DNA of 64,000 nucleotides from Membranipora membranacea (Eukaryota > Bryozoa > Gymnolaemata > Cheilostomatida > Membraniporidae). The stretch lies in contig OU612070.1 of the NCBI GenBank assembly GCA_914767715.1, forward strand, positions 8,883,501-8,947,500, written 5' to 3'. Position 1 is the first letter of the stretch, and the number at the start of each line of letters is the position of its first letter. Shown one piece after another: positions 22 to 44,515 of this stretch. The translations under genes were made by a program, and so were the position numbers. The notes under the pieces are model-generated. The model searched no databases. It worked only from the letters and a program-made list of their open reading frames with translations, and was not told the origin of the DNA.

Positions 22-172
22 GACGACGATGCATGTGGACAATGCAAGAGAGATGTAACCTATGACAATCAGGGAGTGTGCTGTGATAGATGCAACTGCT
101 GGTTCCATGCCGGATGTGAGCAGATCAATTCAGTAGAATACAACAGACTCCAGAACAGTAATACCAACTGAA
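22..172 (+). pseudogene. PHD-type zinc finger remnant of the LINE
   Basis: An open frame from the window edge to a TGA at 170-172 carries the spacing C-x2-C, then C-x2-C, then H-x2-C (ACGQC, CCDRC, WFHAGC), the cysteine/histidine pattern of a PHD finger. Such fingers occur in the ORF1 or the N-terminal part of some non-LTR retrotransposon proteins. It lies upstream of the endonuclease and is followed by a 60-bp repeat, so it most likely belongs to the same element. It could instead be a captured host exon. Confidence 0.55.
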
Positions 173-186
173 CTGGTACTGTCGGA

Positions 187-306
187 GATGCAGCAGGAAC
201 ACCAGCCCTAAAAAACTGGTAGACCAGGGATGCAAAAATACTGATGGATGCAGCAGGACTACCAGCCCTAAAAACCTGACAGACCTGGGATGCAGGGGAA
301 TCACCA
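187..306 (+). repeat. Two tandem copies of a 60-bp unit
   Basis: Two head-to-tail copies (187-246 and 247-306) share the core GATGCAGCAGGA..CACCAGCCC and differ at several positions. They lie between the PHD remnant and the endonuclease and may be the 5' untranslated or linker region of the retrotransposon. Confidence 0.6.
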
Positions 307-317
307 TCGGAAACAAT

Positions 318-2017
318 ATGAGGAGGATGATAAATCATCTACATATTGGAACACTAAACTGCAGAGGAATGAAGGGTAGAGGTGGAGAGACCAAGCGGCA
401 CCACATAGAAGATGATATGACCACATACCAACTGGATGTACTCGCCCTACAGGAGACACATATTGGAGGAGACGGACCGGAAGAGAAAACAACGATGGAT
501 GGAAAAATCAAATATATGATATGCCACTCATCAGCAGGCATAAATGGAAACCACGCAGGCACAGCCATAGTGGTGAGAAAGGGCACAAATGTGATCTTCA
601 GACCGATCAATGACAGAATTTGCCTTAGAAGGTGAAAACCAGCCACAACTATGCCATCACAGTGATCAACGCCTACGCACCAACACTGCCAGTTACAGAC
701 TTGCCAACCTAATTTTTCCAAAATGAGTACAAAAATTTGCAAAATGCTTAAAAATGCTTACAAAACTCCAGGGTGCCTCAAATGACCAGAAAACGCCCCA
801 AAAATGCTATTATTACAGTAAGTAGTCCTTAGAAGCGTAGGAGTGCAGATCACTCAACATTAGTCTTTTTCCCTTTGCGTTGTAAGGTGCAATCTGCTAA
901 TAATAAATGAGAAGTTGTTTGTAACCTAGCCTGTCTGGACAAGACAGGCTATTTGAAACCCTCTTTGCCCATCCTCCCTGGTTTGCCCTTGAAACACTGG
1001 GGCAGGAGATCTGAGTTATCTCACCCCAACAAGGAGGTAGACAACTTTGTTACTCTGATTAAAGAAAAGTTGAAGTTGGCAGAACCACCATAATATATAT
1101 TCTACAATGGATTACTAGTTATGTTGTGTCTGATTGAAGAAAAGTTGCAATTTGGCTCATGCAAAACTTGGACAGGTAAAAAGTCAACTGTAAATCAACA
1201 TCATGGTTTTCTGCAGCCAATACCAGATTTTTAGACTATTATTTAACCATGACAACCAAGTAAACACTAAAGATAAAAGATGTGTTTTTGATTGCCTAAT
1301 TAGATGAACAGGCGTTTGGAAAACCATAAATGAGTACAACTAGCGTTTTGCGTTTAAAACTCAATTAGTGTCAAATAAGCGTTTACAAACGCTTTATGCG
1401 TACAGGTTGGCAAGTATGCAGTTAGTGAAAAGTGTCCAAGTGTAAGAACAGAATTCTATGATGAGCTAGAGACTATAACAAGGTCAGTAAGCAGAAGAGA
1501 CACCTTAGTGATTGCTGGGGACGTTAATGCTAAGACCGGAAGAACACGGATGGAGTACCCTGGAACTATCGGTAGATACGGAAAAGGAGAAGCCAATAGT
1601 AATGGAGTGGAACTGCTTGAGTTTTGCGACCGGCAGAACCTCATTCTTACTAACACACTGTTCAGACACAAGATGGCCCACAGAACAACATGGGAAAGTC
1701 CAGCAAGCTACTCTGATAAAGAAAGGAGAAACCCATACAGAAACATGATCGACTACATCATTATCCGGAGAACAGATCGAAGATTAGTCGAAAATGCAAG
1801 ATCTCACAATGGATTGAAGACCTACACAGACCATAGACTGGTTAGAGCAAGGTTCGATCTTGAGAGACTGCACATAACTAGAAATAAGATAGCACAGAAG
1901 ATCAACTTGGCTTATCTAAATGACCCAACAATAAGAAGCAAGTACCAAACAAATATAGAGATGAGAATAATGGACTCAGAAGATAACTGGAACGAATGCA
2001 CAGGAGAGATGGAACAT
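318..2017 (+). pseudogene. AP-endonuclease domain of the LINE, broken
   Basis: The endonuclease nicks target DNA so that reverse transcription can start. Visible motifs are the N-terminal GTLNCRG and LALQETHI (catalytic Glu), then INAYAP, then IAGDVNAKTG (Asp/Asn motif) and a C-terminal YTDHRLV segment (SDH-type His motif). The first part runs in one frame to a TGA near 633. The continuation VINAYAPT is in another frame, so a frameshift lies at about 625-645. Sequence 696-1418 is a foreign insertion; without it and its 6-bp duplication the frame continues uninterrupted into the second half. A further frame change near 2005-2022 leads into the reverse transcriptase. Confidence 0.8.
696..1418. 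mobile_element. Nonautonomous TIR element nested in the LINE
   Basis: This 723-bp insertion begins CAGACTTGCCAACCT (696-710). It ends with the inverted version of CATACTTGCCAACCT (1404-1418), giving 15-bp terminal inverted repeats with one mismatch. CAGTTA flanks it on both sides (690-695 and 1419-1424), a 6-bp target duplication. Removing the element and one CAGTTA restores continuous endonuclease coding sequence, which fixes the ends. No transposase reading frame is present, so it would depend on another element. I did not recognise the family from the TIR. Confidence 0.8.
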
Positions 2018-2021
2018 CATA

Positions 2022-3995
2022 GTGAATGCCAGCCACAAAGCAGCGGAGCAAGAACTAGGCCAGACAACAGTACATAAAGATCACAACCCAGTAGTACAAG
2101 AACTCTCAGACAAGCAGAAAGAGGTAGGTATGGAGGTAAACATATCTAAGGACGAAGAGAAAAGGAGAACACTCAAACGGAAAAGAAATAGTCTGATGAC
2201 GGAACTACATGAAGAGCTAAGTAAAGCTAAACATAGAAAGATAGAGAGGCAGATAAGAGAAATTGAGGAAGCTAAAGATGATTCAAACAGGATGCACAAA
2301 GCAGTTAAAAGTATCCAACGGATGAAAAAGAAAGAGCCGCTAGTTTTGAACTGCGAAGAGGGAATCACCACTGACCCAGAGAAACAGGCAGAAATAGTGA
2401 CAGACTTCTTTAGAGATATGTTCCAATCCATGAATACACAAGAGATTGAGGAAATACCACCGTCGAAAATGAGAGAAGAATTCACAGAGACAGAGGAAAA
2501 GAATGCCATTAAAAGCCTGAAAAATAACCGAAGCCCAGGTATAGATAATATCAAAGCTGAACACCTCAAATGCAGCCCAGACCTGGTGTGTGAATAAATA
2601 GCTGAACTCCTAAATCACATAGCAGATACCGGAGACTTCCCTAAAGAACTGAACTCTTGCATACTTATACCACTACAGAAGCCAGGCAAGAAGAAAGGAC
2701 CGGCCGCCAACTTGAGACCAGTAATACTGCTATCGATGCTAAGAAAAATTCTTGCTGTCTGCTTGATAAGAAGGATAGGAGACCGAATAGATAAGGAGAT
2801 ACCAAAGAGTCAAGCAGCATACAGGACAGGAAGAGGCACAACGGAGCAGCTACTTACAATCAAACTGCTGGTGGAGAAAGCAGCTACGACACCCAATTAC
2901 CAAACTACAATACTCCTAATGGACATGAGCAAGGCATTCGATAGAGTAGAGAGAAACACGATACTTCAAGATCTGAAGAAAATATTGGAGGAAGACGAAC
3001 TACACCTAGTAAAGATACTCATCAAAGATGTCAAACCGGCTGTCAAAATAGACAACCAAATCGGAGATGAGTTCAAAACAAACATAGGAGTACCGCAAGG
3101 TGACTGCCTATCCCCAATACTTTTTACTCTCTACTTAGCTAAAGCCATGGACCAGGAAAGGAATGATGACGACGAACAGGAAAATCACAAAGAACTAGCA
3201 CCCCACATGAGAGATCATTGCTATATCAAACAAGTAAGAACAGGATGGATCATACCACTACATTATGCAGATGATATATGCTGGGTTGGGACAAACTGTG
3301 AACACAGCATCAGCAACGTGAAAACAGAGATCAAACACAGCTTGCTCCAAAGAAACCTTTTAATAAATGAAGAAAAATCAGAAGAATACAATGTCAGAAA
3401 AGATGGAGAACAAGCATGGAGGAAGTGAAAATATCTAGGTACGATGCTTGGTACAAGTGAAGACATTATCAGAAGGAAGATTCTAGCCAACAACACGCAG
3501 AAGAAAATACACCACCTATCAACTGACAGAAGACTAAACACAGACATCAAAACCAGTGCTTTCAATGCATATATATCCAGCGTATTTCTCTATAACAGTG
3601 AAACATGGACGCTGACCAAAGGAATGGCTGATTCAATAGATAGCTACCATCAGAGAGCCATACGAAACGCGCTGAATGTGAGATGGCCTGAGAAGATGAC
3701 TTCAGAGAAGGTGTATGAGATAACTGGAGCAAAGCCGTGGAGTGAAACAATAGCTCAGAGACGTCTGTGATTACTGGGACATGTCATGAGACTGCCAGAA
3801 AATACCCCCATCCGCCAAGCCCTAGATGAGTATGAACGACCCTTAAAAATGTCCAGAGGAGCACGTCAGAGTACATGGGGCAAAAACATAAAAAATGATC
3901 TATGCAAAATTAATGTTGTCAGGGAGGTACTGACTGAGGTTACACAGGACAGGAACAAATGGAGATCTCTTATTGGCTCAATGTATGCTGGCTGA
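2022..3995 (+). pseudogene. Reverse transcriptase of the LINE, three stops
   Basis: One frame runs through the whole region and is interrupted only by TAA at 2595-2597 and TGAs at 3426-3428 and 3768-3770. Landmarks in order are a lysine/glutamate-rich linker, NNRSPGIDNIKAEHLK (fingers), LNSCILIPLQKPGKKKG, RPVILLSMLRK, a palm segment with MDMSKAFDRV, GVPQGDCLSP, and the catalytic HYADDICWVG. A tail follows with ETWTL and RRL-stop-LLGHVMRLPE, typical of LINE C-termini. The catalytic YADD is intact. So few lesions suggest fairly recent inactivation, although some could be sequencing errors. Confidence 0.9.
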
Positions 3996-5092: not shown

Positions 5093-19036
<13,944 letters not shown>

Positions 19037-19514: not shown

Positions 19515-21217
19515 TTATAGATTATAATCCTTGGGCCTGTTAGCAAGATATTCTGCTATCTTTGGAAGTGCCTCAAACTCGGTCTTCCATTTCTGCAGTC
19601 TCGGTGACATTCTGCTCCACAGATCTGGCACAAGAGAATCCTCGATGCCCTCCATAGTACCATACAACCAAAAGTCAACAACGCACAGCTGTAAAATAGA
19701 ACATTGGTAATGATTTGTGTTTGTTTGGACGGGAAGATCCATGAATGCAAGTTCTGTTAATTGAAAAATATACAATGAGTTTGAAACACAGACGCTCTAT
19801 TACTAACCACCCCACCCCCACATAAAACACACAATAGCTTGTTCTCCATTCCTTCGACACATAAAGGACAATTTAACAGAGTTTTGTGATCTTGGTTTAG
19901 CAGTGATCTTAAACTAATCAAATAGAAAAACCTATAAATTCATGATTTGTTAGAAAGACATTAGATCAAGTTTGATCCATTTGCCTGCGTTCGGAGATGC
20001 CCCCTCTCCTGGTCACTGATCTAGGAAGACATAGGTCAGTTATATTATATCTAAAACTTTTTCTCTTCTCTGTTGGGACTTACATGTGAAAGCATCCACT
20101 GGTCTCCTGTAGCTTTCTTCTCTAGTACATCACATAAAGCTTTCAGTCCCCCGTCGATAAACTCCTGAGATTTCTGTGTGATTTCTTCTTCTGAGTACTT
20201 GCCGGTCCTCTTGTTGAATCGATGTGGGAATAGAGCGGTACGAGCGTCCTCTATACAGTTGATCAGCTCCTCGCGGGCTTCTTCCTCCCCTGGAGCTCCC
20301 CGGAGACCTGTATAATTTATGATTGTTGGTTAATAGACAATAGGATACGGTGACTGATTTTTTTGAGGTTGATCATGAACTATCGTACTGCATCAACCAG
20401 AATTTCCTAATCTAGATTAAGTGTGTGTGAAATGAGAATATCTCTAAGCAGGCATCAAAATCTATGATATCTCCCCCTCTCCAACTCATGCACACTAAAT
20501 CCAAAGTTATAAGAGATAATCAGACCTCAATTTTAAGAATGAGCGGCGAAGTAAACAGTCATGTTTCACCGACCACCAACCGGACAGCTGCATAATAAGG
20601 CTAACTTGGCTCTACTTTGCAGACGGAGTACTGTCACTACTAACCTGCTTCCATACTTATATAGGTAAGAATAGCTAAGCTTGTGTGTATCTCTTCTTCT
20701 CCCACCTTCAGTATGGGTAGATATCCCATTGCAGTAGCTGCAATCATAGAGGGAAGTAATTGAGGCACATATACATAAAAATAAAGAATAAAAAGACACA
20801 ACTTTGTGCCATAAGATAACAATACACACGTATGTTAATATAGGACAGCTTGGAATTTTCAAACTCTGGGATTTAAAGTTTTGGTGAAAAAAAGAATGGT
20901 CATAAATACCAGGTATCCCATCATCTTGCGTGTAAGTGTGGGTGTAATTATGACTATGACTGGGTTACAATGCACAGAGTCTGAGTCATCAGGCAGTTTT
21001 ACATTTAATAAAAATAATAATCAAATTTGCTGTGTTAAATCAGAATGAAAAAGGTTCTAACTGTTCACATACTTGGCTTAATAGCTGGCCATTTATCAAA
21101 GGTTACGGTCTCATCTTCAGCGTTGATTCCACCAACAGCAAACATCATTCTGTACGGCTCTACCCTACCTCTCACTTTATCGAAATACATCAACTTCATT
21201 GTGGGCTTTCCATCTTT
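19515..21217 (-). other. GST unit 3 of the fusion
   Basis: Four exons of 145, 93, 224 and 174 nt (the last includes the stop), same phases. It is the most canonical unit: Tyr453, Arg and Glu are present in YFDKVRGRVEP, with one extra residue between Tyr and the Arg-Gly-Arg, and the Ser is kept in HTSLAILTYIS. The C-terminus ends PKIAEYLANRPKDYNL, a normal GST tail that the internal units lack. This is the unit most likely to be catalytically active. Confidence 0.75.
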
Positions 21218-24200
21218 CTAGAAAGGCAGGAATGAAAAATGGAAAATGGAAAAGAAACTTCTGAGGTAAACACAAATATAATAAGTGATTTGATCTTCCG
21301 ATTCACTCCCTTCTTGGCAGAACGTGAAACAACAGGGACAGCAATTCTAAAATGTTGAGCTATATTTGAGGTATTGCTAGGTTTCACCATGGAATCGGTG
21401 CACTCCGACTGAAACCGACATGACAACAGAAAATCCATTGCCACAAAAAGCTGGTTTTCCCAATCAACTAGTTCTTGGACACTGCCAGATAATAGACAAA
21501 TTATATTATTGTATTACATAGTTGTATAATATAATAATATATTATATATTATAATTATAACATAACACGTTTCATCATATTATATCATATCCTGTGATTA
21601 CCTCTAGGTGCTCTTTGACTCCCTTTATTCCTTCAAATCGTTTCCTCCAGGCCTGAAGTTTACTGCCACATTTGGTCCAACCATCAGGCAATACTGCGTC
21701 GACTACCATTTGCATTGTGCCGTAAAACCAGAAATCTGCCATGGTTAGCTGTATAAACATGTCAAAAAAACATTCTTGAATATTGATTTTGAAGGAATAC
21801 TGTCCTGAGAGATATTAATTAAATATTAATTAAACAGGTGCAAAAATTGATAGTTGTTTATAACGTCATAAACAGTTATAAGCGCGAGTGTGAAGTTAAA
21901 ATTAGCTCCCACGGCATCCCACATGACATTTCCGCCTACCTTCCTCTCAAAATATTGTCTCCCCCCGCAAGACATACCATGTTAGCCGGAAAATTCCATT
22001 ATTTGGTAACACAGTATTAATTATTGATACAGGAATAGTCATATCATAATAAATCTCACTAAAATTACCTTTGAGAATAGAAACTCGTCTGTGATCATTT
22101 TTTCGAGTTGATCGACCAGTTTTGAGAAATGATTCGTGTAAAATTCATCACACTGTGTTTTCCTCTCATCTCCTTCTGGCAGTTGACCGGTGACGATTTT
22201 GATCCTAATTGGGAACAGAGCCGTCCTCATATCCTCTATGACGTTACATAAAGCAATAACTGCAGCGTCCTCCTCGTTTGTGCTTCCTCTCAGTGCTGTA
22301 TAAAAAAGTTAAGTGTTATTTACTGGAGAAAAACAACCTATAATAGTTATGCTAAAATTGCAAGTACTGAGCTCAATGATTACTAGAAAGTTAATGAAAA
22401 CTAAAATTTCACCTGATTTGACGGATTACAATGAGCTACTTATCCTATCCGTCCTACATGTGAACACCCACCTCTTACAGTTAAAACACGGGTTGGCTTA
22501 CGCCCCAGCCTACCTGATTTTTTTCATCAAACTGTTCTGCCATATCTGTCTTGAGTTACGAACAGACTGTGGCACTATGCGTTAGTTTTATTTATATAAA
22601 GGGCGCAGCATTATGGTTAGTCAAAATTTTGTGTATGAGAGCAGCCTTTAAATTTTGCGTTGCCACATCAATGGATAATGGTTATTTCGACAGCGTGTTG
22701 GGGTTACGTGTTAGGGTTACGTAAACACATCTGTCTTTGATGGTTTGCGGTGGTGAAAGTTGTTGTGTATATCAATTAAAGAGTTCTTATTAAGAAACTT
22801 TTAGAAGATTATCCTCCAGCACCTACTCTCGTTCTGAATCATGCTCAAAATTTCACACTATTTCCTCAAATGATATAAACCATCACTTAGACCCATAGCC
22901 TGTTATTCTAAAACAAAGCCTTTAACATGAACCCAATCTCTGAGAATACGCTTCATCACACCTTTAATTAAATTTCTTGCAATCAATTTACCTTAGCCAA
23001 CCACACTGAAAAAAACAGCCTTTTTTGACTCATTTTCTCTAAGAAATGACGCAAAATCTTTGAATCATAGTCTATAAGCTGGCAGCATTACAACAGTAAA
23101 AATAAATATTTTCCGTTTCAGGCGCCCCCCCCCCCCTCTCCTCTATCTAAACCTGGTTTTAAGGCCAATGATAGAGCTGTGAATAGTAACTGATTTTTTT
23201 TTTGTATTTTGTATTCTACACAAGGACTTATTTGACCGCCCTATTTAACGGGACCCCTTAAGCGCATGTGGCTTTTGTGGGGTAGTGACCCTATACCCTT
23301 GCCCGCCATTGCCGGCTACTCTTTTTTGAAGAGGCAGAGGGGATCTTTATAGTGCGTGCAAGCACACGGTAGACCTCCTGTATTTATGGTCCTGATCCTA
23401 ATAAAATCATTGTATTACAAAGTAGAGATCATACCCATTTCACTTCCGAGATAATGTAGCATTGAGACAGTGGTCAGTATCTGTTCATCACCAACACTTA
23501 ACACAGGTAGGTACCCCATAGGAGTCACTGCAAGAGAAATAAATATACAATGTCATTTATGTTTGTATATTTACCTATATATCTTACATATATGTTTACA
23601 TATATTACTGTATATTTAAGTATGTTCTACTTTCTCCACCTCCTTAAATTCTAGAACAGAAAGCGCTAGAATGAATTCCACTAAGATAATGGTCACAGCA
23701 GAGAACGACTAATAAAAATTGCTGTATTTATAGAACTGTGTACTTAGGAATGTATTGTTTAAGGTCTTGGTTCTGGTTATGATATACACATGAGCCATGT
23801 TGGTAGTCATACTACCCACACTGTCAAAACCCAAACAACCCCACGGGCGGTAACTGGCACTATCACGTAATAAAAACTGGTCAGAAACCACAAAAGCTTC
23901 CATCGGTAGCAAGCAGAATGAGCCAGAACCATCTGTAACATCTCGCATTCATCAAACCTCACCTCAAATTAGAACCCCGCGGGCCACCTCAAACATCACA
24001 CCTCAAACCAAAAGCCTCCAAGCCAACCCACTCAAGGAGGTGAGCACCATATGGTTGTAACAAGATTGAGCAGGCAAAAGGTTTGGAAAGGGAAAATACC
24101 TATTGGCTCTGATTTTGCGAGTGGGCCAAGTCGGTGCACATCTGAGGACAAATGCTATGTTGACTACAGAGGGAATCAATTCAAACCCATGAAGGATGCA

Positions 24201-27200
24201 TGTTCAAATAGTAACAAAGCTGCGGCCATCAAAAACTTAACAATGACCAGAAGTACCAGATAGCAGCAATCACAAACTGTGAAATTGATTACTGCAGTCA
24301 TAAAAGTCAACACCGTAGAGCTAATTCCATCACTAAAGAGACTTGATTTCATCCTTTTCTCATCCCTAATAATTGCATTGTGGGATAACAAAACATGAGA
24401 TCCCACAACTTTATCCGTGCAATTAATACACACGACTTATCACAAGACAAAAAAACCTCACAGCACATAAATATTGAACCCAAAATTATTGTGGAATATT
24501 ATATGACAAACATACATGGTTTCATTTTAGCCCAGTTGGCGATGAGGACATAATCCCTTCGACACTTCCTGTTGCCATACGCCATGATCAGGTCCAATGG
24601 TGCTATTCTACCTTTACCCTTAAAGTACTTCATAGTCAAGTCTGGTTTCTATAAAATACATGTATATAAACTTTCATTATTACTGAAGTGGAAAACCATT
24701 TTACAATGAAGAGTAGTTGTTCTCTCTCTTGTTCTGAGGACATAACCCTTGACACTTTCAAACATATATGAGTTTGCCCATTTACTTATAAAACACGGTG
24801 ATAGGTGAACATGCACAGGCATCACCAACCTGCAAAAATCGTTATTGATAAAATTCAAGATAAGGCATGGCATATGGCCCCATAAATTATGTTTTCTGTA
24901 CTTTCAAGTAATCGGATCGGAGTGATCAGGGTTTGTCAGCTTAGCAATGGTGTATTGAACATAAGGTTACCTTCAATGAGTCTAACACGCCAAAAATGGG
25001 CCTTGGTACCCTGACTATTACTTACACGAAGATGTTCTACAATTTCAGGTAAACTCTCGAATTCGATCTTCCAACATCTGACTTTTTTGCCCATTTTTGA
25101 CCAGACATCCTTACATATTGTGTCGGAGATGGCTTTCATTGTACCATACAACCAAAAGTCTGCTACAGTCAGCTAAAGACAAAGACAAAACACAAATGTT
25201 ATACAATGCAAAGAGACATTGTCAAATCAAGTTAAGATAACCCATAACTTTAGATTTCCTGTTTGACATATGAGGTCCTCGGATCTACTTGCGTATTTGT
25301 ACTTCATTATAACATTTGCTTCTTGTCAAGTAGATCCTTCCCAAGTGGGATATTTATGGCTGACATACGGAATATTTTACTCTGTTTGTCTTGTGAGGTC
25401 TACCACTTCTCATATAAGAATTTTAGAGTAACTGTATTTATCTATGAGATTTCACTCCCGAAACATTATAGAGCCATTATAGGTGCTTTAGATGCTACAT
25501 AATCGGATGAGGATATCAGCCACTTTTTGTCCCTCAGCCATATGAAGGACATGATGGTCAGTCTATATCCTCAGGTCATAGGGATAAGGAGAGCTCCATT
25601 AAATGCCCTATATCTACATGTTTGCTTTAGGTTTTGATTAATCACTGCAGAATTGCATACAACTTTAATCTGTTTGCTTGTGAGCACACACACAATATTT
25701 GACTTAGCCTAAACGTTTACTATAACATCATCGCTAGGTAACATGAAAACAAACTTGAATAGCTTATGACACTGGAGACAAGATAGACTGAGTGTAAATG
25801 TGACCCAAATTTATCTGACTCTGTTAACATATTTTTGCGTAATGTTAGCTGCCATCAATGTTCACTAGCTAAGGTGGGGAGTGTATATAAAGTAATGAGG
25901 TTGAGTTAAGGTCAGCTAGCCATAAAATTCATTGTTTAAAGCCAGCAGGACATAACAATCTCTTGCCAATGTAAAAACTTAAAGTAGTTTTGCTTCATCT
26001 TTGATGCTAGTAACAAATATAGATTATGTTATCTTTGTCCTCTAGGGTATATACATTCGCATCACTTATACATGCTGATAAAGAACCTGTCGCCTGGGCG
26101 TGATTTTCGTGTCATCAAAATCATATGCCCTTATCTAAAGTACACAAATCTGCACGTTGTGGGCAGCTGGGTGGAGTTATCAGTTCTACGGTTTCAGCCA
26201 ATTAACACTTCATACCACAACAACAAGCTAATAATAAGCGTGCCTCATGCCTCTTGTTGGTCTTACAGCAAACACCATAGGAAAATTTGGCAGCATTATT
26301 TTGTTACCTCCTACAGAAGCCACTGACGTTATCAGGACCAATTTACGCGTCTCACCACGACGACAACAAGCTTATTATAAGTGTGCATCATATCATGCTT
26401 TTCTGACATGTCAGGAAACCTTGGGACAAAACTGCAGAATCATTGCGTTACCTTGGACAGCAGCCACTGGTCTCCAGTGATGTTATCTTCCAGGTATTTG
26501 CAGAGCGTAGGCAGATATTTCTCACACAATGTCTGCTCTGCTTCCAGTCTGCCAGCCTCATCGAGCATTCCCAGAAGATAATAACCTCTCTTCTCCAAAA
26601 CATAGCTACGTACATCCTCGATCATATTCACCATAGCTTCAGCAGAGGCCTGTTCCGAGTTATCACAACCCTTCAAACCTGTTGATATATACACAATTTT
26701 ATCACGAGAAAAATATGGTGTTTTGAGGTTGAAACATTTACCTTTCTTATTCCAGCAGTGAATTGGTTAGTTGTGAGAAATTTGGGGATTTTGTCTCCTA
26801 GGGTTGGTGGAGGACACCACCCAACCTCAAACAGCACAGAGGAGTCAGGATCTGGCTTAAAGGGCAACCAGGGTTTCAAACAACTCCTCATTGATTAATA
26901 GCAGATTGCGCCTTCTGCATAGAGTCAAAGACAAAATCTAATTCGGATGATTTTTCAGCCAGAATTCTTGTGAAACATTTATTCCATCAGGTACTCAAAC
27001 TCAGCTAAAATAGAATACCACTGAGCAGTGTCCTGTTCCTGTTATTATTTAGCCTGTGCTCTATCATCATTACAGCAATGTCTTAGAACCTCCCCTAAAC
27101 TGAAGTGTTACCCAGCTTAGAGTCAGCACGTAATGCACAAAGCTGATGCTGCCTGCACATTATTGACTACCCATTAATGCATTGCTGCGAAACCTTGGTT

Positions 27201-28747
27201 ACCCTTTAATTTGAAATGAATGCGTGGTATATGTGTCACCACTCTCTTAGCGTCAGAGCACATGGCCTCCATCTAAATCTGTCTCAAATTACACTGAATA
27301 TATATATATATACAATATATATATATACAATATATATATACAATATATATATATACAATATATATATACAATATATACAAGACATTTCATGAATTACAAA
27401 ATTTTCACGTGGCACATTATAAGGTCTTCTTCTTCCCATGCATGGTCTTTCTACAGAACAAACATTTTGATGACACATTTAATGTACTAAAGATTTTACA
27501 TATATGACAACAGTGCAGTGTCATGAAGTTGACCCAAAATGTTCATACAACCTGACTTAGTTATAAAACATACCTGCTTCTCCACCTAGATATGTCAGCA
27601 TGGCTAAACTTGTGATGATCTGTTCTGATCCGACAGTCATTAGAGGAAGGGTGCCCATAGGAGTCTCTAAAATACAAACAACCGATCACAAACATATTTA
27701 CCGTACATCAGCCACACTTACAATAATACAGTTCATGAAATGAGAGAGGTTACAGTTCACATGCATTTGCTTTCCATATCAAGCTTGTGAGAACCCAGTA
27801 TCCCAGATCGTGGCTGTCAATAAGATATAACATATATGTCTCTTCCAAACATATATATTATATATGTTTGGAGGAGACATATATTATGTTCACGGAACAT
27901 AGCAGGCTATCTCAATGGATTATTTAGCTCCTTACTTGGTTTGAGGTCAGCCCAGTCTTCAAACTTGATGATATCATTCTCAAATGGTATCCCAGCATAC
28001 TTCATGATCATGAGAAGAGGTTCACATCGGCCGCCATCGTTAAAGTGAGTGAACCTCACAGCACCTCCTTTCAATGGTCCTACGGAATTCCCCTGCAGAA
28101 GAGATTTAAAACAATGAGTGCCCTGTCAATAGCTAATCAAGGTGTGGCTGGGAGTGTGGTGCTTGCCATATACTCTACATTTCACAATGTTTCTGACAGT
28201 ATTGCTGTCACTGCAGTTCGACACAATCCCAGGAAATGGTGATCCAGACGTTATTTTTATAGCTATCGGTACTTATTAGTAGGGGCCGAAGATCACCAGC
28301 ACAATAACTGCTATAAGAGTAATCTAGCAGTTTATAAAGATAACATTACTTTTGCATTCATAATCTTGTACATTAGGGGTCATCCAAAAGCAGGATTGTG
28401 ATGTGCATAAAATAGCGGTGTGCAGAGGATGAAATTCTAAATGGTGTATCCATAGACAAAACACACTGTGTTTTGTCTATGGGTGTAACCATGACAGTTA
28501 TAAAAAAAACATTGAAATGGGACCAGTAGTTTTCAAGTAAGTATCCTAGGCAAGGCATGACAATGGGTATACCAAACCCCTTGGGTCAAAGTCGAAATAA
28601 CAGTTATAAACAACATTACATATATTGATATATATGTATATATACCTTGGCAGGTGTAGATCTAGCTGCAGCTCTATTGCCCTGTTGTGTGGGAGCGCTG
28701 CCTTTTCCTGGAGGACCTCCTGCTGCTTTGCTCTGGTCACAACCCAT
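19515..28747 (-). CDS. Triple tandem GST fusion with MGC acylation motif
   Basis: Exons in coding order: 28747-28646, 28092-27936, 27666-27574, 26678-26452, 25172-25026, 24648-24516, 23527-23435, 22295-22069, 21748-21602, 21217-21073, 20737-20645, 20307-20084, 19688-19515. All borders are GT..AG, phases match and the total is 1962 nt (653 residues). The first exon encodes 34 residues starting MGCDQSK: Gly2 and Cys3 with Ser6-Lys7 fit N-myristoylation plus palmitoylation as in Src kinases, so a membrane location is inferred. Three GST units follow, at residues about 35-242, 243-442 and 443-653. Each has a thioredoxin-fold half (cis-Pro motif MGYLP/MGTLP) and a helical half (ADFW/VDFWLYGTM). 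They resemble sigma-class enzymes, which use glutathione for conjugation or prostaglandin isomerisation. Internal units have no start codon, terminator or promoter gap of their own. Separate genes are unlikely but need transcript proof. Confidence 0.85.
21602..24648 (-). other. GST unit 2 of the fusion
   Basis: Four exons of 133, 93, 227 and 147 nt with the same phases as unit 1. The catalytic Tyr is kept (Tyr250 in MKYFKGKGR), but the Glu after the Gly-Arg is replaced by Ala. The glutathione-site Ser becomes Thr (LTTVSMLHYLG). The unit starts KPDLTMKYF with no usable initiator in frame before the tyrosine strand, so it depends on translation from unit 1. It ends GVKEHLE. Confidence 0.75.
26790..27295. 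repeat. Dispersed repeat copy in GST intron
   Basis: Blocks such as GGACACCACCCAACCTCAAA near 26812 and CATGGCCTCCATCTAAATC near 27262 recur near 49872-50000 in the same order, with internal material deleted there. The similarity continues past the microsatellite to about 27440. No coding potential was recognised. It lies between the fourth and third coding exons. Confidence 0.65.
27298..27378. repeat. AT-rich microsatellite (ATATATAC)n
   Basis: About 80 bp of repeated TATATATACAA-type units in the GST intron. It interrupts the dispersed repeat that surrounds it. Confidence 0.9.
27832..27884. repeat. Hairpin with 25-bp arms
   Basis: Arms 27832-27856 and 27860-27884 match in inverted orientation at 24 of 25 bases with a 3-nt loop. 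It is in the GST intron between exons 2 and 3. Confidence 0.75.
28450..28482. repeat. Perfect 16-bp inverted repeat
   Basis: CCATAGACAAAACACA at 28450-28465 is followed after one base by its reverse complement at 28467-28482. It lies in the first intron of the GST fusion. Confidence 0.8.
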
Positions 28748-30282
28748 ACTGTATAAAAAAGCCATCAAAACGCATCCTTATTAAGCCTTAAGCAACATAG
28801 TGATACGAACGAAGTGACAAAACTATCAACACAATATAACAAAACCACCCCATCCCGAAAGCAACTGGCCAACTTTTGCTAGCATCATAGAACATATTTT
28901 AATACAGGAACCTCTTTTTTCGATAAACTTCAGGGCTAACGAGTCATATCCGTTAAAATAGTCATAAACAGATATTATTTCGCCATTTTGAAATACTCTC
29001 AACCGAGTCAACAGAATGGGTAGTGACCTTAATTCTAAAACAGTGATGGGTAAGCTTGAATCCTGAATCACTCCACCGCACTGTCAGAGAATCACGACAC
29101 AGGAGCACAAGTGACAAGATTCTAAAACAGTGATGGGCAAGTTCGAATCCTGTATTACTCAGCCACACTGTCGAAGAATAGCGACACCGGAGCACAGGTG
29201 ACACCGGAGCACAGGTGACACCGGAGCACAGGTGTCAGCAGGTACCTATCCTGGGGAGAAGATGTACATACCTGTTGATTAGTTGGTGAAGGTGTGATGC
29301 ACTGATGCTGCGGTGATATGGCAAAACTGATCAACAGTCGATCAACACTCAAATCACAGTATGATAGGCACTGATTTACATAGCCTGATAAGCATAATTT
29401 AATCCCCTAAACTAACTCCTCAAACAAATATGACTAGGCAAAACCCACAGCCCCAGTCTTGATAAAATACAAATCTGCACAGTCATTATACTATATTTTG
29501 TTTGCCTTCATAAACAAACACAGTTACCTAGCAAAACGAAAAAAATATTTATTACACTATGAAGATATTCACTGGTTGGATTCGATCAATAAAATCTCGG
29601 CCTATTTTGATTAATCGTTGGGCAAATACCATGGGTAGATAATTAGACCATCATTGCCAATAAGCTATATTTTGCTTCTATGGAGTTAAGTTTTATAGAT
29701 TATTGAAATTTTATTTCTGAAATAACTGCTAAGATTTTCCCTCAGATTCTTATTATATAGCCCAAGTTGTAAGAAAAATAAATCTATCTCTCGCAGTATG
29801 TTGTTACCAGTGAAAGGCATGGAGGAGTTAGAAATTTGCTCTCTGGGCACCAACTGTCAACTAAGCTTTTAATCACATGAATAGTTAAATTAGAGATTTT
29901 GAACAATCGATCGTTTGTATGGGCTGTTCATTTTTTATTTACCTCATTTTTATCAAAACAAGCTACGTATAGGCAAATTGTACATAGAGCCAACAAGAAA
30001 CAAAATTCACTAGCTCGAGACGAAGAAACAAAATATACCATATCTGAGCACAAGTTAGCAACACTTCAGCACCAAAAACTTCCTCAAAATTACGCACACA
30101 AAATGCAATAAATCAACAATCAACTAAAGATTTCAACAATCTTAATTAATACAGGTTCTAGTACGATAAGCCATTATGAAGATATGGATACTGGATGACA
30201 TTGGTTGTATTTTGTAACTGGGCGGACATTGTTGTGAGAGAGATTGGATTTGGACAGACGAGGGAGATAAGTCTTAATCAGA
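28748..30282. other. Region between GST and DNAJA genes
   Basis: No coding exon was recognised. It must contain the GST promoter and 5' untranslated region and the DNAJA 3' untranslated region. The proximal part (29033-29232) is a duplicated repeat ending in a 17-bp tandem. The remainder, to 30282, is AT-rich with no structure I could support. Confidence 0.5.
29033..29232. repeat. Duplicated 87-bp unit plus 17-bp tandem
   Basis: ATTCTAAAACAGTGATGGG starts two related units at 29033 and 29119. The second runs into three copies of ACACCGGAGCACAGGTG at about 29183-29232. Each unit holds CAGTGATGGGCAAG-type sequence, resembling the ends of the hAT element at 32251-36122 and suggesting derivation from hAT termini. 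Confidence 0.65.
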
Positions 30283-42200: not shown

Positions 42201-44515
42201 TTAAATAGAAAAAATACTGCCACAAACCCATCTGGATGTGACACACACAATTGGGTCGATTTGTTAGACTGGAACAGGTGTGGAAAATCAGGACAGGGTG
42301 GGATCATATGGTTTACCTATCTCTCAAGTCCAGATTGGGACAAGTTGCTTTCGACAAAGAGAAAAGAACTTTGTTTCACAATCGAAGGAAATATCAGGCA
42401 GCTTTTCTGGTTATCAAGATTTTCAATATTTCCCGAATATCCAGATGGGACCAGTAATCACACCTATTCTCTCAGTCAGACAGGGAACAGATACATCAAA
42501 TAGGAAAAAAAACCTCCCCACCTTGTTAAGTCAGGGTTCCCAGGGTCTTGACACCCAACCTCCTCACTCCATAGTTAAATAGTAAAGAGTTGCGTTTTTT
42601 AAGATCCCTTTTTTTCTGCAACTGATCTCTTATGACATGTTTTTTTAGATAATACAAGCTAACTTACAGAATGCATAGGGTAATCATAGGTGTCCCTTAA
42701 CCAAAATCATCAGAACAAAACACGATTGTTGGCCTAAAATAATAGTTTTTATGCCTGTTTATGAAAACATGGTCATCAGTGGTAAAATGATTTCATTGAG
42801 CTCTCATAACCTAACCAGCTACTCCATAGTTTTGACTACAGTATGATACGGGCTTTATCAGCCAAAATGATCTTTTGAAGAGTGTCGAGGGTAGCAGTCA
42901 TCATGACCTATTGTGACCTCTCTAGGGTCAACAGACCACAATTATCACTAGAGGTGAGGACTTGATCTATTTAGATTGAAATTGTATTTAGATATACAAT
43001 ATGTATTTATCAAACTTGGCAGTATTAGTGAAGGACGGGGTTGTCAACCTTAGATGCAATAAAGTGGAAATCTTCCATCAAAGTCAAACACCTCACAACG
43101 CTGAATAACTATGTGGGAGTTGCAATGAATACATTGCTCTAAAAAGCCTACTCTCAAAATTTTGAATCATATTTGTGAATCAGATTTTAAACTTTATTTT
43201 AATCTGGTAACACCAAGCGAGGCAGCAAACACAGGAAATGAAATTAAAGGCACCTACCTTTACATGGATCGCATATAACATTTTTCTGAAGTGCCAGCTT
43301 TTTTGTGGATCCATTGTACGTATCTTCCAAACTAACCTATAATATAGCCAGTAAATGTACCAACTATGTGTCAAATCGACCAAGTTATTTACTCAAAAAG
43401 ATTCGCTACAGTAGGCACATATGTTGTATACGATGTCTATGGTGTATATGGTGTATATAACATATGTGGTGTATATGGCGTATATGTAAATGGCGAATGG
43501 ATCAAGTACTCCAGCAGAAGGGCGTCAGAGGCAACACCAGGGGTGTCATGATGAGCTGGATTGCTTATGTGTCACAATTACCTTAAGCTGATGGATTACA
43601 TCCTTCCCCCTTGCAGGACCTCTATTTCGACCGCGACTCCCACCAAAGAACATATCAAATATATCCATAGGACTGTGGAAGCCTCCACCACCTCCCCCTC
43701 CGGGTCCTTCCTTGATCGCCTGCTCTCCCCCCTCGTCGTATATCTTCCTCTTCTTTTCATCTGACAAGACTTCATAGGCCTGAGATACCGCCTTAAACTT
43801 TAAAACAGAAAATACTGCATTATGAAAACTTTCCACTAAAGAAACATTATTTAATAATACCGAAAGGCTGGTAATATCAGGTATTTTACCAGGCCCTCTT
43901 AACCAGAACAAAATTCTCAACAGCAATGGAAAACATTCTCGCCAAAATGCAAAAGACTTCGTAGGTTGCTTGAAATACCAACATTCCGTTGTTTTAAACT
44001 AGTACTTCAAATAGCTGCCATAACCTTCCAATAATAGCTAGTGAAAATTGATAACTACAACTAGGTTTGATTTACGAACAATATATTAAATGAACAAAGC
44101 AGGCCTGATATGAGAAGGCGTTGACGAGAAAGTTACACGTTTTCTGTTTGTAATTAGTAACTGTCATCATCAGGCAAAGGTGGATAACTGCTGACACAAT
44201 TTGCCTTGCCTGCAGCCTTGATGTTATTTAGTTATGAAACACCATATTATTGGCTATTATTTGTATAATAGTGATTTTGTTTATAGTTTTTAGCCAAAAA
44301 AACAAGATTTGAATACAATGTATCTTATTGATCATTCATAATTCAACCACAATAAAAATGATGTTCCAACAGACCTGTTCAGCTTTTTCTTCATCTCCCG
44401 GGTTTTTATCAGGGTGAAGTTTAAGAGCCATTTTCCTGTAAGCCTTCTTTAGTTGCGAGTCATCGGCATCAGGCTTAACACCCAGTAAGTCATAGTAACC
44501 CGTCTCTTTAACCAT
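30283..44515 (-). CDS. DNAJA: Type-A DnaJ (HSP40) co-chaperone, 8 exons
   Basis: DnaJ proteins deliver substrates to HSP70 and stimulate its ATPase. Exons in coding order: 44515-44375, 43797-43582, 43336-43258, 39419-39189, 37189-36959, 32086-31941, 31107-30991, 30435-30283; total 1314 nt, about 437 residues, in phase. The J domain has HPD at residues 34-36 ([10 protein letters not shown]). A Gly-rich linker with [10 protein letters not shown] follows, then four zinc-binding CxxC motifs ([24 protein letters not shown]). Next come the substrate-binding C-terminal domains ([38 protein letters not shown]). It ends CANQ-stop, a CaaX farnesylation signal like CAHQ of DNAJA2, implying cytosolic and membrane-associated use. 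One donor (exon 5, GTTCGT) is weak but gives the expected family junction. I cannot separate DNAJA1 from DNAJA2. Confidence 0.95.
30840..30961. repeat. Fold-back element, 46-bp arms, in DNAJA intron
   Basis: Arms 30840-30885 and 30916-30961 are inverted copies with a few mismatches around a 30-nt loop. It lies in the last DNAJA intron, next to the exon at 30991, and has no coding content. Confidence 0.75.
31162..31206. repeat. 45-nt TAGTCTGAG unit, copy 1
   Basis: This GC-rich 45-nt block starts TAGTCTGAGCCC, contains GACTTTTGCCCCT and ends CCCGGG. It closely resembles 37877-37921, in an otherwise AT-rich intron. Confidence 0.55.
31486..31547. repeat. Perfect 31-bp tandem duplication
   Basis: CATTATACCATGTTATATCA..GTCA occurs twice head-to-tail (31486-31516 and 31517-31547), with a partial third start after it. 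It is in a DNAJA intron. Confidence 0.9.
32251..36122 (-). mobile_element. hAT-family DNA transposon, 3872 bp
   Basis: Both ends begin TAGTGATGGGC (left at 32251, right inverted at 36122), a hAT-like terminal repeat. The perfect 8-bp target duplication GGTGTGAG lies at 32243-32250 and 36123-36130, the hAT hallmark. The transposase reads on the minus strand. The right end also carries tandem GCCCACACAAACTC units (about 36030-36090), a subterminal-repeat arrangement. The element sits in the DNAJA intron between exons 5 and 6 and would be spliced out of that transcript. Confidence 0.92.
32824..35741 (-). pseudogene. hAT transposase, disabled
   Basis: The protein cuts and pastes the element. Segments in order: BED-type zinc finger (35741-35460; starts [11 protein letters not shown], with CGKFE and a HLKTAH motif), a PSRKIF segment and the RNase-H-like core TTDAWTS (35386-34907), [22 protein letters not shown] (34554-34372), [12 protein letters not shown] (about 34075-33960), then 33725-33507 and 33308-32824 with the C-terminal dimerisation motif [13 protein letters not shown]. 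Some gaps are probably introns. Lesions seen: an in-frame TAG at 33018-33020 inside the dimerisation region, a one-base frame change near 32868-32880 before the last residues, and a frame change near 35384-35408. The protein is therefore unlikely to be functional. Confidence 0.85.
36155..36462. repeat. 154-bp tandem duplication beside the hAT
   Basis: Copies 36155-36308 and 36309-36462 are equal in length and differ at only a few bases. They begin GTCAGAGAGCTAGCTG and start 25 bp beyond the target duplication of the hAT element, within the same DNAJA intron. Confidence 0.9.
37810..38340. repeat. Fragments of the palindromic intron repeat
   Basis: Two diverged copies (about 37815-38050 and 38145-38340) of a block with TTCACAATCAAAG, AGCAGNATTTCTGG and TTTCCTGAGAAT. 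The same block occurs inside the large palindromes at 40195-43075. They lie in the intron between DNAJA exons 4 and 5. Confidence 0.65.
37877..37921. repeat. 45-nt TAGTCTGAG unit, copy 2, inserted in a repeat
   Basis: Related repeats read TTCTGGTTATC without interruption. Here 45 nt beginning TAGTCTGAG and ending CCCCCGG separate TTCTGG from TTATCGAG, so the empty site is visible. The block resembles 31162-31206. Confidence 0.6.
40195..41645. repeat. Large palindromic element, about 1.45 kb
   Basis: The left half (about 40195-40970) is repeated inverted in the right half (about 40980-41645). Paired landmarks: ACATGACCAAAATCATTGG with its complement near 41615; CAATCACATCAAGTGCAG with its complement near 41555; CATTATGACCTATTG with its complement near 41430. 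No open reading frame of note was seen. It lies in the DNAJA intron between exons 3 and 4. Confidence 0.75.
41785..43075. repeat. Second, incomplete palindromic copy
   Basis: A reverse arm at about 41790-42125 and a longer forward arm at about 42180-43075 match the palindrome immediately upstream (for example CATCATGACCTATTGTGACC near 42898 and CTAGGGTCAACAGACCACAA near 42942). Some blocks are missing. Together with 40195-41645 it makes up most of this intron. Confidence 0.7.
43418..43495. repeat. GTGTATATG microsatellite-like tract
   Basis: About ten imperfect copies of a GTGTATATG / GTCTATG unit lie between DNAJA exons 2 and 3. Confidence 0.75.

Follow-up and report, generated by a model that had tools for sequence, protein, structure and literature searches.

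Three GST units are fused in a single polypeptide encoded by one gene of the bryozoan Membranipora membranacea, and this fusion is real and expressed as RNA. The gene lies within the window, the 64,000-nucleotide stretch of M. membranacea DNA that was analyzed, on the minus strand from 28747 to 19515, a genomic span of 9.2 kb. A sequence-only reading had joined its 13 exons (Table 1) without a phase error into a protein of 653 residues, and the rebuilt model, with every coordinate unchanged, gives the same product: a coding sequence of 1962 nt (653 codons plus stop), GT-AG borders at all 12 introns, and a reading frame without a stop over 653 codons, compared with 47 and 46 stops per 652 codons in the remaining frames. 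The N-terminus MGCDQSK is likewise present as described, at the head of the leader in exon 1. The start phases of the exons are 0 / 0,1,1,0 / 0,1,1,0 / 0,1,1,0, and the repetition of the set 0,1,1,0 indicates that each GST unit is one four-exon block. An exon resembling the third exon of unit 2 also occurs in a public ENA contig (P0004), with 55 of 74 residues identical.

Table 1. Exons and flanking elements of the three-GST gene, in positions of the window.
Feature	Position	Strand	Remarks
In-frame upstream codons MAFLYS	28748..28765	-	contain acceptor-like TTTTTTATACAG at 28760-28749
Exon 1	28646..28747	-	34-residue leader MGCDQSK..., with MGC..SK acylation-type signal; donor GTATAT
Unit 1 exon 1	27936..28092	-	FTHFNDGGRCEP; His at catalytic Tyr position
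Unit 1 exon 2	27574..27666	-	93 nt
Unit 1 exon 3	26452..26678	-	227 nt
Unit 1 exon 4	25026..25172	-	phase-0 donor at end, without stop
Unit 2 exon 1	24516..24648	-	LTMKYFKGKGR, Tyr kept; phase-0 acceptor immediately ahead of KPD
Unit 2 exon 2	23435..23527	-	93 nt
Unit 2 exon 3	22069..22295	-	227 nt
Unit 2 exon 4	21602..21748	-	phase-0 donor at end, without stop
Unit 3 exon 1	21073..21217	-	MKLMYFDKVRGR; Tyr kept
Unit 3 exon 2	20645..20737	-	93 nt
Unit 3 exon 3	20084..20307	-	224 nt
Unit 3 exon 4	19515..19688	-	sole stop codon of the model; C-terminal RP tail as in single-unit GSTs
Polyadenylation-type signal AATAAA	19183..19188	-	single AATAAA/ATTAAA match within 600 nt past the stop

The existence of a single message is established by P0001, a protein of 653 amino acids encoded by a 2175-base public contig. 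Over the 12 junctions, 652 of its residues are those of the window, the exception being residue 610, where the window has G and P0001 has S. When the whole genome was searched in six frames with P0001, all 13 exons were found at one place (E <= 2.5e-10), and the search returned no second copy of the gene, the best match elsewhere having an E value of 0.002. Because the contig is 2175 bases long against a span of 9.2 kb, and no second copy was found in the genome, P0001 reflects a spliced message covering the three units; its derivation from a retrocopy was ruled out by the same search, in which no intronless copy appeared. P0001 thus bears out the earlier proposals that exon 1 is spliced to unit 1 and that no break separates the units, and shorter forms may exist beside it. 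The proposed covalent trimer holds as a covalent chain of three units, given the transcript-length contig and a two-unit relative, but the word refers to units in series and not to quaternary structure. P0001 is known as a protein, together with the size and source tag of its contig, which might allow for a chimeric transcript assembly or mis-assembly that matches the model by coincidence. Such an artifact is exceedingly improbable, considering the concordance of genome and contig over the junctions and the presence in Watersipora, on a different contig of 66 Mb, of the same leader followed by multiple units.

The ends of the units are also informative. In other GST genes of the same genome, the last exon reaches a stop within 7 codons past the matched end in 12 of 12 cases tested (of 13 such exons found), whereas neither unit 1 nor unit 2 has the RP tail and both continue into a donor. 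Read-through from these two units would run into intron sequence for 30 and 9 codons, respectively, before a stop, and intron retention could possibly give shorter forms. At the start side, an in-frame Met lies near the beginning of units 2 and 3, as it does in 19 of 19 other GST first exons, so that only the stop side discriminates; the argument that other genes have their own ATG and the units do not was dropped for this reason. These Met codons, the shorter forms that read-through would permit, and the tandem GST clusters of this genome would all suit three adjacent single-unit genes misjoined by the gene model. Nevertheless, P0001 covers all units with no processed copy in the assembly, the other last exons behave differently from those of units 1 and 2, and a fused relative exists; we consider misjoining scarcely credible, and separate tandem genes were rejected on the basis of P0001, the whole-genome search and the stop-side exon test.

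The relative, P0002 of Watersipora subatra, is an uncharacterized protein of 454 amino acids that begins MGCNESK and contains two fused GST units, so a multi-GST protein with an MGC start and MGC..SK does occur in a related genome, where the sequence-only reading had suggested looking for one. Like the window protein, it combines in one chain an MGC..SK leader, the unit 1 motif FTHF.DGGRCEP and a Tyr in the last unit; unlike it, it has two units and nothing corresponding to unit 2. The first units are 54% identical, and unit 3 of the window is 57-58% identical to the second Watersipora unit. With the architecture present in two species, as three and as two units, three units are not required everywhere, and the pair offers a direct view of unit gain or loss. 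The architecture is new on a known fold and is so far found in bryozoans only. Among viral contigs, 37 pattern matches yielded no confirmed relative of the three-GST protein; searching plasmids with the first part of the window gave no match and has no bearing on the gene.

The leader carries the features of a dual acylation signal. Gly2, Cys3, a small residue at position 6 and Lys7 are present in both MGCDQSK and MGCNESK, and a PROSITE-type myristoylation pattern fits both bryozoan N-termini but not that of lancelet HPGDS, among the three proteins tested. As a sequence feature, then, the signal noted earlier withstands comparison with a second species. Five of the first seven residues are identical between the two leaders (M, G, C, S and K), compared with only 9 of 36 over residues 8-43 of the Watersipora protein, and both leaders are basic, with 5 K/R against 1 acidic residue in the window and 7 against 3 in Watersipora. 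Dually acylated proteins beginning with MGC include Lck, Lyn, Yes and G-alpha-o. Acylation and a membrane location of the three-GST protein are predicted from its N-terminus.

Conceivably, the anchor could go unused, either because translation starts at an upstream ATG or because the N-terminus stays unacylated, and the product would then be a soluble multi-GST protein. An in-frame ATG is found 6 codons upstream of MGC with no intervening stop and, if used, would abolish the myristoylation site. However, the MAFLYS stretch that it opens ends in TTTTTTATACAG, 12 bases identical to the acceptor ahead of exon 8, a junction confirmed by P0001, and probably represents the end of an intron in the 5′UTR. 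In addition, P0001 and P0002 both begin at the Met of MGC, which in the window has the flank AGTATGG, and MGC..SK is kept in the second species although the rest of the leader diverges. A soluble form therefore appears rather unlikely.

That there are three GST units, as originally proposed, is upheld by the Pfam model GST_C_3, which scores above its cut-off in each of them, and by an AlphaFold model in which the GST elements appear three times over (mean pLDDT 65, pTM 0.40). The N-terminal Pfam GST models match more weakly: the best score is 21.5 against a cut-off of 22 bits in unit 1 and 14.5 against 20.9 in unit 3, no N-terminal GST model is among the Pfam matches to unit 2, and all NCBIfam matches to the protein fall below cut-off. 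The model of the two-unit Watersipora protein has a pTM of 0.47, and neither AlphaFold model places the units confidently relative to one another, so that no interface or unit order was derived from them.

Several lines of comparison connect the units to one class. In the PDB, the closest sequences are those of a Nilaparvata GST S2, an Ascaris GST, Schistosoma 28-kDa GSTs and hematopoietic prostaglandin D synthases (lowest E 7e-19). They align best over stretches of units 1 and 3, and none of the matches listed has its best stretch in unit 2; Foldseek ranks the same sigma-GST/HPGDS kinds first, followed by alpha-class GSTs. A search with the unit alignment recovered lancelet HPGDS as its single full-length relative. 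Two sigma-like GSTs were set against the units and are 19-35% identical to them. In all three units, introns follow ..KP (phase 1) and the 93-nt exon (phase 1) and precede the last exon (phase 0), and these positions and phases match those of both single-unit C4 GST genes of the same genome, which have one additional intron. Trees were built with FastTree and ultrafast bootstrap. On the sequence and intron comparisons, the units are descendants of a sigma-like GST, the class being assigned from nearest relatives alone and unit 2 being placed via its sister units. Tandem GST clusters are also seen in the M. membranacea genome.

The active sites differ among the units. Across the five bryozoan units of the two species, catalytic Tyr8 is present in three (window units 2 and 3 and Watersipora unit 2), and His replaces it in unit 1 of both species. 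Of the residues of the glutathione site (Arg14, Trp39, Lys43, cis-Pro, Gln/Glu63, Ser64 and Asp97), the first four are found in 5/5 units, Ser64 in 4/5 (Thr in unit 2) and Asp97 in 4/5 (Glu in Watersipora unit 1). Position 63, which is Glu in the lancelet protein and Gln in human HPGDS, is Thr or Ser in every bryozoan unit and Gln or Glu in none, and glutathione binding is possibly weaker as a result. As a distinctive mark, Thr63 is weakened by the finding that TS occurs at this place in some of the genome's other GST exons as well. A conserved Cys follows Arg14 in unit 1; its reading as an omega-like site was discarded, and the residue is treated as an oddity, since in the alignment it lies three residues beyond the omega catalytic Cys.

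The His of unit 1, the Thr/Ser at position 63 throughout and the low identity to sigma-like GSTs could also mean that the protein is no enzyme but a covalent scaffold, in which GST dimer faces hold partners at the membrane. A structural use of such domains is reported for AIMP2, EPRS, AIMP3 and MRS, whose GST domains form a heterotetramer (PMC6760448). Yet Tyr8, Arg14, Trp39, Lys43 and cis-Pro are intact in window units 2 and 3 as well as the second Watersipora unit, which exceeds what a pure scaffold needs, and we regard this role as possible but not as the one to favor.

The best explanation as a whole, to which we assign about an even chance, is an anchored array of three sigma-derived GST enzyme units. 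The units would follow one another after a flexible, basic leader with probable N-myristoylation at Gly2 and palmitoylation at Cys3, and the protein would most likely be attached to a cell membrane from the inside. The array would have arisen within one gene, as a four-exon GST block with phase-0 ends was duplicated and stop codons and C-terminal tails were lost at the unit joins. Units 2 and 3, which have the Tyr, would bind glutathione and act on lipid-derived electrophiles or peroxides in the manner of sigma GSTs and prostaglandin D synthases, while the membrane-adjacent unit 1, having lost the catalytic Tyr, would be a scaffold or a partner of a non-classical type. Within this proposal, we infer glutathione use, the nature of the substrates, the part played by unit 1 and the pairing of the units. 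The more specific version, a lipid-anchored covalent GST array of bryozoans at the plasma membrane, in which unit 1, with its conserved His for Tyr and the Cys after Arg14, has become a non-Tyr site that acts beside Tyr-type units on products of membrane lipids, is put forward tentatively. The membrane-tethered intramolecular GST assembly and the redox, lipid-mediator or scaffolding work suggested by the sequence-only reading are likewise putative.

Few soluble dimeric enzymes are as well known as the cytosolic GSTs. A naturally occurring three-GST chain, with a Src-type acylation signal conserved in two bryozoan families, would, if true, represent this fold strung together and placed at a membrane. 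It could serve as a natural system for asking how fused GST units pair, whether adjacent sites cooperate, and whether sigma-type chemistry (prostaglandin-like mediators, lipid peroxides) takes place at membranes in a phylum whose biochemistry is sparsely described. As far as we know, no acylated GST with multiple active sites has been described.

Among open-licence PMC papers, no match was found for "three GST domains" or for a myristoylated GST (matching text concerned TLR components), and among the matches for GST domains in tandem, in pairs or in threes, the only multi-GST chain was Leishmania TDR1. TDR1 is described as a trimer of subunits with two GST domains each (PMC4138524), whereas another review reports a tetramer whose omega-class GST domains use glutathione (PMC3196053). 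A covalent multi-GST chain therefore has some precedent (PMC4138524), which qualifies the earlier remark that the architecture was unfamiliar in this family. The TDR1 domains are omega-type and two in number, whereas the window units are sigma-type and three. We know of no MGC leader in TDR1. GDAP1 is a membrane-held GST protein whose GST parts are reported to face the cytosol (PMC11273598). A transmembrane segment fixes it in the outer membrane of mitochondria, in contrast to the predicted acyl leader of the window protein. The "two GST domains" of GDAP1 are two halves of a single unit. The GST-like domains of the multi-tRNA-synthetase complex also build a higher-order structural assembly (PMC6760448). 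They belong to separate chains and, to our knowledge, have no acyl leader and no origin in a single internal duplication. Drosophila GST-2 (PDB 1m0u), a chain of 249 residues, matches unit 3 from residue 50, which implies a leader of comparable length; it is a sigma-class protein with one unit rather than three and is not known to carry the MGC motif. Single-unit sigma GSTs and HPGDS share the fold of the window protein, are its closest sequences and have Tyr8, Arg14, Trp39 and Lys43 in common with units 2 and 3; the window protein departs from them in having three units per chain and an acylation-type leader, in the change at position 63 of all units, and in the absence of Tyr8 from unit 1.

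The 13-exon gene proposed in the sequence-only reading was recovered exactly when rebuilt from the raw sequence. Its spliced exons total 1962 nt and encode 653 residues plus a stop codon, all 12 introns of the three-unit GST gene are bounded by GT-AG, and frame 0, which lacks stops, is the only open frame (47 and 46 stops in 652 codons of the other two). The three GST units, 39-42% identical in pairwise comparisons, share an exon architecture in which start phases 0, 1, 1 and 0 recur. In units 1, 2 and 3, respectively, the first exons measure 157, 133 and 145 nt, the second 93, 93 and 93 nt, the third 227, 227 and 224 nt and the fourth 147, 147 and 174 nt.

A protein search with the full 653-residue query against ~5.8 billion proteins (7997 candidates scored) returned two matches at E ≤ 10. 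Among them is P0001, a 653-residue protein (longest contig 2175 bases) whose source tag, 'lgn', we take to denote assemblies of public sequencing runs, and which differs from the window protein at a single residue (G610S). When the whole genome was searched in six frames, P0001 matched all 13 exons at the window locus and nowhere else, the second-best place being a different GST (E 0.002; total of 57 matches at E ≤ 10). Because the coding sequence extends over 9233 bases of the genome, against a 2175-base contig, and all 13 exons lie at one place only, P0001 is a spliced product. It crosses both unit-unit junctions and the junction between leader and unit 1, the opposite of transcripts confined to separate units or of an unspliced first exon, and so bears out the proposed single chain; shorter forms may exist alongside it.

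Features of the window (first five rows, window positions) and of other sequences (C) and loci (L) of the M. membranacea assembly
Position	Strand	Feature	Observation
28747-19515	-	Three-unit GST gene	13 exons
28092-27936	-	Unit 1, both species	Cys right after conserved Arg14 (GGRCEP), beside the His-for-Tyr change
162-3428	+	Non-LTR retrotransposon-like stretch	Match to reverse transcriptase (PF00078, E 3.9e-24); PF14529 endonuclease match just under cut-off; separate open frames
5991-6368	+	Exon-sized frame	Nucleolin-binding-domain match; probable neighbouring gene
43546-43998	-	Exon-sized frame	DnaJ match; probable neighbouring gene
L005, about 223-381 (C4 15.588 Mb)		Last exon of second neighbouring single-unit GST	In-frame TGA
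C6:27415218-27415325 (L045)		Clustered GST first exon	Expected ATG out of frame, unlike near-identical neighbour; only an inner Met in frame
C3 14.22-14.38 Mb (L026-L033, L036, L047, L048)		Tandem array of very similar sigma-like GST genes	Matches to 9 first and 13 last exons across ~155 kb; scores nearly equal bar one first exon
C9 12.50-12.52, C1 2.06-2.08, C6 27.40-27.43, C11 10.93-10.94 Mb		Divergent sigma-like GST exon clusters	

Similar gene structures occur elsewhere in the genome, in which the window occupies C6:8883501-8947500. Two single-unit GST genes on C4 consist of five exons apiece; their introns coincide with those of the window units at three positions, in phases 1, 1 and 0, their second exon is likewise exactly 93 nt, and they carry one extra intron. 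The second of these genes ends in a stop and, judged by its inner TGA, is a broken copy or allele. The matched exons indicate that the sigma-like GST family is broadly expanded in M. membranacea. Six other GST regions served as an internal control, further matches, for example on C7, being left out. Each of the 19 first exons seen there carries an in-frame Met, either inside the matched start or ahead of it, and since window units 2 and 3 also carry one, the start gives no distinction. Window units 1 and 2 do differ from single GSTs at the stop: of 13 other last exons, the 12 tested (all but that of the second C4 gene) reach their own stop no more than 7 codons from the matched end, whereas those of units 1 and 2 have no RP tail and continue into a splice donor.

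The other match of the full-length search is a multi-GST protein starting MGC, as suggested earlier for a check in related genomes: P0002 of the bryozoan Watersipora subatra, a 454-residue 'uncharacterized protein' on a 66-Mb contig, which joins two units behind a leader that reads MGCNESK. Identity is 54% between its first unit and window unit 1, and 57-58% between its second and window unit 3; window unit 2, at 39% and 37% identity to these two units, lacks a counterpart in P0002. P0004, a 138-residue ENA entry from a 3631-base contig, agrees with exon 8 of unit 2 at 55 of 74 residues and has no match outside it, as expected of a relative's genomic DNA; at least one more genome therefore contains a unit-2 exon. 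A profile built from the two full proteins retrieved nothing beyond P0001 and P0002 at E ≤ 0.001 among 7996 scored candidates, and a five-unit profile (3120 candidates) retrieved only lancelet hematopoietic prostaglandin D synthase (HPGDS) and P0004 as relatives. Absence from other organisms is weak evidence, since the search relies on shared 5-residue words.

In FastTree and IQ-TREE phylogenies, the five bryozoan units group apart from two single-unit sigma-like GSTs used as outgroups (1.00 local support; 100/100), and the first units of both species pair (0.95; 93.8/92). In the rooted trees the Watersipora second unit branches first, apart from window unit 3 (0.84; 76.8/75), which argues against the simple pairing suggested by identity; with the two distant outgroups removed, the pair is regained (0.958; 95.1/95). 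The two are taken as putative orthologs, subject to the doubt raised by the rooted trees.

Site residues (Tyr8, Arg14, Trp39, Lys43, cis-Pro, position 63) were read against lancelet HPGDS, and their roles are taken to be those known for HPGDS. Arg14, Trp39, Lys43 and cis-Pro are present in all five bryozoan units; position 63 is Thr or Ser in all five, Glu in the lancelet enzyme and Gln in human HPGDS. Three units retain Tyr8 (units 2 and 3 of the window, unit 2 of Watersipora), and both species have His there in unit 1; the same position in the 19 other GST first exons, as read here, is Tyr in 18, Phe in one and His in none. Unit 1 is not simply decaying, because its site surroundings are conserved in both species (FTHF.DGGRCEPL).

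The leaders of both species are basic and have M, G, C, S and K in common among their first seven residues; only 9 of 36 positions agree across Watersipora residues 8-43. The proposed acylation signal is supported as sequence, both leaders matching a PROSITE-type myristoylation pattern; MGC..SK is the form found in Lyn and Yes. Against an anchor counts an in-frame ATG six codons upstream of MGC (MAFLYS-MGC). We think that this ATG is intronic, because the MAFLYS stretch ends in the acceptor-like TTTTTTATACAG, the same as the exon 8 acceptor, and P0001 begins at MGC. In AlphaFold2 models, pLDDT is below 50 in both leaders (residues 1-44 window, 1-40 Watersipora), and the window protein, modelled with a 3-row alignment, repeats the GST strand/helix order three times (mean pLDDT 65.4, pTM 0.40), with 4 and 5 residues between the last helix and the next unit's first strand (6 in the Watersipora model). 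Foldseek against the PDB placed Ascaris and Schistosoma GSTs and Nilaparvata prostaglandin D synthase on top, followed by alpha-class GSTs (best 50 of 964 at E ≤ 10).

The best reading of these sequence features is a sigma-type GST of several units, putatively tethered to a membrane, in which two units are of the Tyr type and the first is altered; the main rival is a scaffold role for the three-unit GST. No printed description of three GST domains fused together, or of a GST that is myristoylated, turned up among open-licence PMC papers, which are only part of the literature. The nearest printed precedent found for GST domains fused in one chain is Leishmania TDR1, a trimer in which each subunit has two GST domains (PMC4138524). 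The fusion principle is therefore already known, and the three-unit architecture appears to be new.
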